Shown here in pieces: positions 24,369-49,004 of a DNA stretch of 64,000 nt (the first letter of the stretch is position 1; each line of letters opens with the position of its first letter). Where the stretch lies: assembly GCA_025463135.1 (NCBI GenBank), contig JAOAPY010000049.1:1-64000 (forward strand). Reading direction: 5' to 3'. This DNA is from Acidobacteriota bacterium. Its GTDB lineage: Bacteria; Acidobacteriota; Blastocatellia; Pyrinomonadales; Pyrinomonadaceae. The translations under genes and the position numbers were made by a program. The notes beneath the pieces were generated by a model that was not told the origin of the DNA, made no database searches, and saw only the letters and a list, made by a program, of their open reading frames with translations.

Positions 24369-26153
24369 ATGAATATTCTAGGCATTTCCTGTTTTTATCA
24401 CGACGCGGCAGCCGCCCTGATCCAGGACGGTGATCTAATCGCGGCCGCGGAGGAAGAACGTTTTAGCCGTAAGAAGCACGACTACGGTTTTCCCGATTTG
24501 GCCGTTGATTTCTGTCTGGAACAGGGCGGCATCAAGGCCGGCGATCTGGATTACGTGGTCTTCCACGAAAAGCCTCTGGTCAAGTTCGAACGCATCCTCA
24601 TGACTGTGCTCGGCGCCTTTCCCAGGACTTCAACCGTCTTCCGCGAAGCGATGGTTGCCTGGTTCAATGAAAAGCTTTGGATCAAAGGGCGCATTCTCAA
24701 GAAATTGAATCTGCCGCCGGATCGCATCCTCTTCAGTGAACATCACATGTCCCATGCGGCCAGCACACTCTTCTGCTCATCGTTTGAAGAAGCCGCAATC
24801 ATGACAGTTGACGGTGTGGGCGAATGGACCACCACCACGCTGGGACGCGGGCGCGTGGATTGGCAGGGCGGTGGGGAAAACCGCATCGAGTTGTTTGAAG
24901 AGATCAAGTTTCCGAATTCACTGGGATTGCTCTATTCAGGCTTTACCGCTTTCCTCGGCTTTGAAGTGAACGAAGGCGAGTACAAAGTGATGGGGATGGC
25001 GCCTTACGGCGAGCCACGTTACCTCGACAAGGTATACAAGCTGGTCCAGGTGAATGATGACGGCAGCTTTCGCCTGAACATGGAGTACTTTGCTTTCCAT
25101 AAATCGACGGAGCAGACCATTAATTCAAAGTTCACCGATCTGTTTGGCCCGCCACGCCGCTCGGATGTTGATTTCTATACCGCGACGACCCATCCAAATC
25201 GCGACCATCCACAATGGGACGATCGCATTGCTGAAGAGAATCAGATGTATGCGGATGTGGCGGCCAGTATTCAGCGCGCCACTGAAGAGATTCTTTTAAA
25301 GATGGCCAACCACCTGCACCAGAAGACTGGTCTGAAAAAGCTTTGTGTCGCGGGTGGTGTGATGCTCAACAGCGTCGCCAACGGACGCATCCTGCGAGAG
25401 ACTGCGTTCGACGATATCTTTGTGCAACCGGCCGCCGGTGACGCAGGTGCAGCGTTAGGCGCCGCGTTATGGGCCTATCATATTGTCTTGCAGCGTCCGA
25501 GAAAGTTTGTAATGGACCATTGCTATTGGGGCGATCAGTTTTCCGATGCGCAAATTGGTGATTTCCTGCGCGCAAACGGTATCCCGTACGAGCACATCGA
25601 TGACGAGGAGCGCATGCTGGATCGCGTAGTCGAAAACATGATGCAGGGAAAGGTGTTCGGCTGGTTCAAGGGCCGCTTTGAATGGGGACCGCGCGCGCTG
25701 GGCAATCGCAGCATTCTTGCGGACCCGCGCTTCGCGGCAATGAAAGGCATAGTAAACGAGAAGATCAAGTTCCGCGAACCATTTCGGCCATTCGCGCCGG
25801 TGATCCTTGACGAGCGTGTGGATGAATACTTTGATTTGCCCGAAGGCAAGAACCATCATGCCGCGCGGTTCATGCAGTTTGTTACGCCCATACGTAAAGA
25901 TAAGCAGGACTTGATCCAGGCAGTGAATCATCAGGGCACCGGGCGGCTGCAAACAATTCAACGTGAGGTCAATCCGTCGTACTACCGCCTGGTGGAAAAA
26001 TTTGGCGAGGCCACCGGCGTGCCGGTACTGTTGAATACATCGTACAATCTGCGCGGTGAGCCGATGGTGTCGAGTCCGGCGAATGCGTTTAGCACTTTTA
26101 GCAACAGCGGTTTGGATTTGCTCGTGATGGAGAACTTTTTAATTAGGAAGTAG
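24369..26153 (+). CDS. Carbamoyltransferase (NodU/CmcH family)
   Basis: Transfers a carbamoyl group from carbamoyl phosphate, through carbamoyl-adenylate, to a hydroxyl of a sugar or similar acceptor. 594 residues, the normal length. The N-terminal Kae1-like part starts MNILGISCFYHDAAAAL and has the metal-binding histidines in FSEHHMSHAAS (H125, H126, H129) and MTVDGVGEWTTT (D148). The C-terminal half has GRFEWGPRALGNRSILADPR and LNTSYNLRGEPMV. Placement between two tiny membrane proteins within a glycosyltransferase cluster indicates that it decorates the surface glycan rather than an antibiotic. No polyketide or peptide synthetase genes are nearby. Confidence 0.93.
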   Translation: MNILGISCFYHDAAAALIQDGDLIAAAEEERFSRKKHDYGFPDLAVDFCLEQGGIKAGDLDYVVFHEKPLVKFERILMTVLGAFPRTSTVFREAMVAWFNEKLWIKGRILKKLNLPPDRILFSEHHMSHAASTLFCSSFEEAAIMTVDGVGEWTTTTLGRGRVDWQGGGENRIELFEEIKFPNSLGLLYSGFTAFLGFEVNEGEYKVMGMAPYGEPRYLDKVYKLVQVNDDGSFRLNMEYFAFHKSTEQTINSKFTDLFGPPRRSDVDFYTATTHPNRDHPQWDDRIAEENQMYADVAASIQRATEEILLKMANHLHQKTGLKKLCVAGGVMLNSVANGRILRETAFDDIFVQPAAGDAGAALGAALWAYHIVLQRPRKFVMDHCYWGDQFSDAQIGDFLRANGIPYEHIDDEERMLDRVVENMMQGKVFGWFKGRFEWGPRALGNRSILADPRFAAMKGIVNEKIKFREPFRPFAPVILDERVDEYFDLPEGKNHHAARFMQFVTPIRKDKQDLIQAVNHQGTGRLQTIQREVNPSYYRLVEKFGEATGVPVLLNTSYNLRGEPMVSSPANAFSTFSNSGLDLLVMENFLIRK

Positions 26154-26360: not shown

Positions 26361-26479
26361 AAAAATTGGGTAGTGGGTCAGTTTCGCGGCAAATGTCCCA
26401 CAAACTTTAGTTTGTCGCGGCGTTACGACAAGCTAAATAAAGCTTATCGGACATCAAACTGACCCACTACCAAAAATTG
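26361..26479. mobile_element. 103-bp miniature inverted-repeat element with 8-bp target duplication
   Basis: Element 26369-26471 begins GGTAGTGGGTCAGTTT and ends with its exact reverse complement (26456-26471), a perfect 16-bp terminal repeat. Identical AAAAATTG octamers flank it at 26361-26368 and 26472-26479, as expected for a target-site duplication. The interior holds a second imperfect palindrome, TGTCCCACAAACTTTA against TAAAGCTTATCGGACA. This relates it to the GTCCGACAAACTT repeats at 40992-41071 and 48921-49004. It has no coding capacity and would need a transposase in trans. Confidence 0.75.
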
Positions 26480-26504: not shown

Positions 26505-26696
26505 ATGAGTCAAATGAAAAAATGGTTTCAACGGCTTGGTGCTAACGCCGGCGTGCTGGGCGATTTTGTGGTCTTCCTCTGGAAGCGAAAAATGTGGTGG
26601 CTGATTCCGATGGTTCTGACCCTGCTGATTTGCGGTCTGCTGCTGGTTTTTGCGTCCTCGACGGGATTGGGACCATTCATTTATTCACTTTTTTAG
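26505..26696 (+). CDS. DUF5989-family small membrane protein
   Basis: 63 residues: a polar N-terminus (MSQMKKWFQRLGANAG), FVVFLWKRKMWWLIPMVLTL with a strong hydrophobic helix to about residue 50, then a short end (GPFIYSLF). The KRKMWWLIP signature followed by GPFIYxLF is what I recognise as DUF5989, small proteins that accompany carbamoyltransferases and SGNH hydrolases. It follows the carbamoyltransferase after a 350-bp repeat-filled gap. No strong ribosome site is seen. The palindromic repeat at 26699 begins three bases after its stop. Confidence 0.82.
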   Translation: MSQMKKWFQRLGANAGVLGDFVVFLWKRKMWWLIPMVLTLLICGLLLVFASSTGLGPFIYSLF

Positions 26697-26698
26697 AT

Positions 26699-26788
26699 CG
26701 TGGCATCGGCATCCTGCCGATGTTGCGGTGCGGTTACACTCTATCGGGCTTTACCTTCAACGACCACGGGCGAGATGCCCGTGCCACG
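26699..26788. repeat. HGRDARAT-type palindromic repeat, copy A
   Basis: Ends CGTGGCA and TGCCACG form terminal inverted repeats, with an internal hairpin CATCGGCATCCTGCCGATG and a CGGGCGAGATGCCCG stem. Translated, the right part reads NDHGRDARAT, a well-known artefact peptide of this repeat type. It starts just after the DUF5989 stop codon and is open in the frame of the next gene. Confidence 0.8.
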
Positions 26789-26791
26789 CTC

Positions 26792-40991: not shown

Positions 40992-41071
40992 GTCCGACGA
41001 ACTTCAGTTTGTCGATTTCCCGGGAGGAAACCCTTTGTCGCAAACAGACGACAAACTAAAGTTCGTCGAAC
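40992..41071. repeat. GTCCGACAAACTT palindromic element, copy 1
   Basis: Arms 40992-41014 and 41049-41071 match at 21 of 23 positions. The loop contains GGGAGGAAACCCTTTG, which looks like a ribosome site with a TTG start. The right arm is read as codons at the start of the next methyltransferase. Confidence 0.72.
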
Positions 41072-48920: not shown

Positions 48921-49004
48921 GTCCGACAAACTTCAGTTTGTCGTTTGTAATACTGGCAGCTAGCCTGTTTAGTACAGTTAACGACAAACTGAAGTTCGTC
49001 GGAC
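48921..49004. repeat. GTCCGACAAACTT palindromic element, copy 2
   Basis: Arms 48921-48945 and 48980-49004 are 25-bp inverted copies with one G/A difference. It begins 8 bp from the thyA ATG and ends 40 bp from the homoserine dehydrogenase ATG, so it fills the divergent promoter region. No target duplication is seen. Confidence 0.78.

Follow-up and report, generated by a model that had tools for sequence, protein, structure and literature searches.

The IS1 family of insertion sequences includes members whose transposase is encoded in a single open reading frame (ORF). Ends starting with GGTGGTG and 8-bp target duplications are given for an ISAba3-like IS1 element in PMC6382973. The passages of the same article on MITEAba12 of Acinetobacter describe a 113-bp miniature element (MITE) with 16-bp terminal inverted repeats (TIRs) and target duplications that are mostly 9 bp and in some cases 8 bp long, and whose identity to its putative IS parent is limited to the TIRs. 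REPINs and REP dimers, on the other hand, are short palindromes arranged in head-to-head inverted pairs, which are found in hundreds of copies per genome, have a sharp outer boundary, and show no target duplication (PMC3116915, PMC3733652). REP dimers have also been described within longer palindromes (GTAG-15 of A. variabilis and CGTC-1 of H. neapolitanus), and the REP class CGTC has no linked transposase (PMC3733652). The element described here lies in a stretch of 64,000 nucleotides, which is called the window below.

A 103-bp element in the window

The features of the element and of two related palindrome pairs are as follows (window positions; strand given where it applies).

26361..26368: left target-site duplication AAAAATTG, with an exact second copy at 26472-26479
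26369..26471, plus strand: MITE of 103 bp, corresponding to the 99-bp family consensus with a 4-bp insertion (AAAT) in the second core arm
26369..26384, plus strand: left TIR of 16 bp, GGTAGTGGGTCAGTTT, common to IS1-type elements of relatives
26395..26417, plus strand: first REP-like core palindrome, GTCCCACAAACTTTAGTTTGTCG, one base from GTCCGACAAACTTTAGTTTGTCG
26426..26452, minus strand: second REP-like palindrome, an inverted stem variant with the 4-bp insertion
26456..26471, minus strand: right TIR of 16 bp, the exact complement of the left repeat
26472..26479: right target-site duplication AAAAATTG
40992..41071: free inverted pair of REP-like palindromes with a 34-nt loop, without MITE ends
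48921..49004: free inverted pair of REP-like palindromes with a 38-nt loop, without MITE ends

The initial annotation had claimed perfect 16-bp ends and an exact 8-bp duplication at 26361-26479, and the sequence reads exactly so: the order is AAAAATTG, GGTAGTGGGTCAGTTT ... AAACTGACCCACTACC, AAAAATTG, and the inverted ends match in 16 of 16 bases. The two core arms are separated by the 8-nt spacer cggcgtta. Compared with the 99-bp consensus, this copy differs in one core base, the 4-bp insertion, and one further base. With its 103 bp it stays below the size limit of MITEs (~600 bp) and has no coding capacity. The folding energy on the window strand is -27.7 kcal/mol, compared with a mean of -9.8 for shuffled sequences (z = -8), and an Rfam scan of the window gave no match.

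The gap that holds the MITE measures 350 bp and separates a carbamoyltransferase-like gene (24369-26153) from a short gene (about 26507-26697). In one relative (L225), the same two flanking genes are only ~10 bp apart and the element is absent; L225 is too diverged for a base-by-base alignment, and no empty site exact to the base was obtained for the window copy. Just 3' of the MITE, at 26698-26790, there are more short palindromic repeats (GCATCGGCATCCTGCCGATG, CACGGGCGAGATGCCCGTG).

Copies, target duplications and tandem arrays in the host genome

The host genome (G000; 6.48 Mb in 56 contigs) was searched with the window element, which yielded at least 44 full-length copies on many contigs. 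The 14-bp end, with at most one mismatch, was matched 113 times compared with four times for the reversed control. Together, these two results exclude a chance arrangement. The family consensus of 99 bp was derived from 41 aligned copies (mean identity 97%), and the ends are almost invariant.

The flanks of 47 copies were read, and 2162 flank pairs taken from different copies served as control. Exact duplications of 9 bp were found at 14 of the 47 copies and of 8 bp at seven, including the window copy, so that 21/47 copies carry an exact duplication of either length compared with 7/2162 mismatched flank pairs. Eight further copies have an 8-9 bp duplication with one mismatch, which raises the count to 29/47 compared with 12/2162 in the control. 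Family-wide, 9-bp duplications are thus commoner than those of 8 bp. About one-third of the copies have no clean duplication; units from inside arrays and four copies of a repeat unrelated to the MITE are counted among them. As the 47 copies contain these four copies of another palindromic repeat as well as five or six units of tandem arrays, the true duplication rate must be higher than 29/47. This other repeat (accacctgcGGTAGC...GCTACCgcaggtggt; L315:19786, L089:18865, L090:93, and L103:17086) mimics the MITE ends and has an unrelated core.

Related empty sites were compared within one genome (the fetched host sequence) for three copies. The joined flanks with a single 9-mer match the uninterrupted sequence in 36/39 bases at C6:36552 and in 39/45 bases at C31:194053, both ungapped, and in 56/60 bases at C5:71894. 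The search for empty sites proposed in the initial annotation was therefore successful for three family copies, whose uninterrupted target relatives lie in the same genome, and gave none for the window copy itself. The reading of the 103-bp element as a product of transposition is strongly supported by the copy number, the duplications, and the related empty sites. Given the copies, their 8-9 bp duplications, and the uninterrupted target relatives, the window element is a genuine MITE.

Some copies are arranged in tandem. At C32:115130-115444 of the host genome, three MITE copies follow each other head to tail, separated by the 9-bp spacers cgccctcag and tgctcttgg, and an outer 9-bp duplication (cgctggctg) surrounds the three units. 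Contigs C17 (1-360) and C35 (25170-25340) break inside similar arrays with tgccctcag as spacer, and successive units in another genome of the family (G112) are separated by actttctg and actctctg. Because the inner spacers of the C32 array differ while its outer duplication matches, this arrangement suggests joint transposition of the whole array. Circle formation by IS1 is known (Turlan and Chandler 1995, cited in PMC12428005), and by analogy it could be the source of the 9-bp spacers. These could then be former donor-site duplications left behind by circular or tandem intermediates.

IS1-type elements with the same or similar ends

A parent of the MITE was searched for in 119 genomes of the same bacterial family. 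The exact 16-bp end is present in 25 of them, on elements from 67 to over 1000 bp with differing interiors. In G052, one exact end and one with a single change bound a 1445-bp element (L144, G052:C153, 433-1877), which has a 9-bp duplication with one mismatch and contains the remnant of a transposase and a gene of the cation-efflux family (PF01545). G103 encodes an intact 294-aa transposase with GGTAGTGGGTCATTTT 15 bp past its stop. This protein scores 31.9 bits against the Pfam model DDE_Tnp_IS1 (PF03400), above the cut-off of 24.1, and 60.1 bits against the NCBIfam IS1 model NF033558, below the cut-off of 100. In G109, a 319-aa transposase is located in a 3115-bp element (L205, G109:C61, 109-3223), which has an 8-bp duplication and whose perfect ends of 25 bp start with GGTAGTG; the N-terminus of the protein, read by eye, resembles the IS1 InsA zinc finger. 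The G109 element contains other ORFs too, one of which (187 aa) appears by eye to be a ClpP-like serine protease. Elements of 774-792 bp with GGTAGTGGCTCA ends carry clear IS1 domains, and the elements in G109 and G039 have duplications of 8-9 bp. In genomes of the same bacterial family, GGTAGTG ends flank IS1-type DDE transposases encoded in single ORFs, and the target duplications are 8-9 bp long. The ORFs of these partner transposases encode 276-319 aa and lack the programmed insA/insB frameshift, as do the single-ORF members of IS1.

Two adjacent units of 744 bp and 195 bp with 8 bp between them are found in G112 (L158, G112:C1, 1501-2450), without a transposase. The 744-bp unit has exact ends and was considered as a possible IS; it was rejected because it contains no transposase. 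The related ends of the 195-bp unit (GGTACTGGTTCAGTTT) may mark a sister MITE family.

No complete IS1-type element flanked by both ends in exact form was found in the host genome. The host has one intact homologous transposase gene (G000:C40:63219-64049, 276 aa, 48% identical to the G103 protein); upstream of it there is a possible end, and downstream none was found. The initial annotation had advised looking for a transposase gene with the same terminal repeats: partner genes with ends of this kind were seen in relatives, while the host gene has no matching pair of ends. Apart from the TIR, no segment of the MITE was matched to an IS1 element. It is highly probable that the 103-bp element is a non-autonomous MITE of IS1-family lineage, and its parent is likely an IS1-family transposon. 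Judging from the ends and duplications, an IS1-type DDE transposase would have recognised the 16-bp ends and integrated the element where the target had been cut with a stagger; repair of this cut would have produced the 8-9 bp duplication. As the MITE codes for nothing, this transposase would have acted in trans. It may have been supplied by an autonomous copy since lost from the host or by the intact relative on contig C40.

The REP-like core and its relation to known systems

In the core of the MITE family, GTCCGACAAACTTTAGTTTGTCG is followed after 8 nt by a variant of this palindrome in inverted orientation. When one mismatch was allowed, the 23-bp palindrome was matched at 348 places in the host genome, compared with none for the reversed control. 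Its usual arrangement is that of inverted pairs. The GTCCGACAAACTT palindromes that the initial annotation had noticed at 40992 and 48921 are real; its proposal that they are decayed or core-only copies of the MITE is unsupported, as they have no inner flanks and no duplication and their loops cannot be aligned. Free pairs were counted in 846 kb of fetched sequence, part of which had been chosen as palindrome-rich. Of the 116 palindrome copies found there, 34 are in or near MITEs and 60 form inverted pairs (30 pairs). One of these pairs is a MITE core with decayed ends; in the 29 others, the loop is 32-77 nt long, unrelated in sequence, and not alignable with the MITE. The free pairs have a sharp outer boundary, the inner flanks and outer ends of the MITE are absent from them, and no target duplication was seen at free pairs in this census. 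They carry no GTAG or CGTC tag (their outer bases read GTCC and are preceded by no conserved base). The palindrome is also present in genomes of the family without a full-length MITE among the matches listed. Because it forms a family of its own with ~350 members, has other loops, and occurs in genomes without a listed full-length MITE, the palindrome is to be regarded as cargo of the MITE and not as its remnant. The free palindromes are a separate, more abundant REPIN-like family.

The free palindrome of G095 and G096 is mostly GTCCGACATGCTTCAGCTTGTCG and the MITEs there have ATG-type arms, while host MITEs carry the host's own AAA-type arms. That the MITE arm variant follows the free palindromes of its host is a pointer and not a result, based on few genomes and on few MITEs in G095 and G096. 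The MITE arms mostly read CTTTAG, and the free palindromes mostly CTTCAG. The interior of the MITE consists of two 23-bp REP-like palindromes in inverted order and is a compact version of the REPIN-like pairs that occur free in the host. In the simplest history, an IS1-type MITE would have acquired a REP-like pair and then been amplified to dozens of copies, whereby the palindromes would have been spread by the DDE route as well. A more far-reaching idea, which we put forward with considerable reservation, is that a DDE-type MITE regularly serves REP palindromes as a second vehicle. In each lineage, it would take up the variant of its own host and spread it together with duplications, and one cargo would then be common to two unrelated mobile systems. 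These two systems may keep the cargo alike by exchange.

Three other explanations were weighed. The MITE could belong to another DDE family with 8-bp duplications (IS1595, IS6, or ISAs1 type) and resemble the local IS1-type ends by chance, given that 8-bp duplications and ends starting with GG occur in several families, that the G103 transposase also weakly matches IS6, and that an IS1595 fragment is present in the host genome. However, this fragment is the only one, is decayed, and has no such ends, so that IS1595 was rejected as parent. In G052, G077, and G103, exact or near-exact MITE ends belong to elements with an IS1-type transposase or to remnants of such elements, and GGTAGTG recurs close to IS1-type genes in many genomes, which makes another DDE family improbable. 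Alternatively, the whole unit including its outer inverted repeats could be a REP or REPIN moved by a tyrosine (HUH, RAYT) transposase, as would fit the inverted REP-like pair in the core and the six Y1 transposase genes of the host. Yet 8-9 bp duplications are frequent at the MITE, whereas Y1/RAYT transposition is not known to produce target duplications. In addition, the outer ends are absent from the free pairs, and no good copy of the palindrome was found near the Y1-transposase genes at the 56 loci examined (six in the host and 50 in relatives). This origin is therefore hardly credible.

The remaining explanation concerns the direction of descent. If the free palindromes were derived from MITE cores and had spread by deletion or recombination after amplification of the MITE, the 23-bp unit common to both and the agreement of the arm variants in G095, G096, and the host would be accounted for. 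However, the free palindromes outnumber the MITEs and mostly have CTTCAG in place of CTTTAG, their loops are unrelated and lack the inner flanks of the MITE, and they occur in genomes without a full-length MITE among the matches listed. Descent from the MITE is thus unlikely, and an IS1-type MITE with a REP-like cargo is the preferred reading.

As such, the MITE is an ordinary kind of element and well supported; its family, most likely IS1-type, is new as far as the searches show. In a bacterial group that has been little studied, an abundant MITE family of apparently rather recent origin is hereby given a likely transposase family and set apart from the more numerous free palindromes, for which it could be mistaken. 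For the spread of REP-type palindromes without a linked transposase, a DDE-type carrier offers a concrete and testable answer, at least for some copies. The REP-like core and its host-specific variants are of specialist interest.

Compared with the single-ORF members of IS1, the family is alike in the DDE_Tnp_IS1 domain of the transposases found at these ends, the GGTAGTG starts, and the 8-9 bp duplications. It differs in that the MITE has no transposase and, with regard to classical IS1, in that the partner transposases are single ORFs that lack the insA/insB frameshift; the one partner transposase tested scores below the NCBIfam IS1 cut-off. MITEAba12 resembles the MITE in size, TIR length, duplications, and the restriction of parental identity to the TIRs. 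In contrast, the passages on it in PMC6382973 name ISAba12 as parent, describe an AT-rich element whose movement was demonstrated, and report no REP-like core. The free palindromes share the pairing, copy number, and boundaries of REPINs and REP dimers (PMC3116915, PMC3733652). Unlike REPINs, they have neither a GTAG or CGTC tag nor an adjoining RAYT gene that could be found, and a pair of them is also carried by a DDE-type MITE. As in GTAG-15 and CGTC-1, a REP dimer is embedded in a larger palindromic repeat; in contrast to both, the outer palindrome is here identified as a mobile element, with TIRs common to IS1-type elements and duplications of 8-9 bp.
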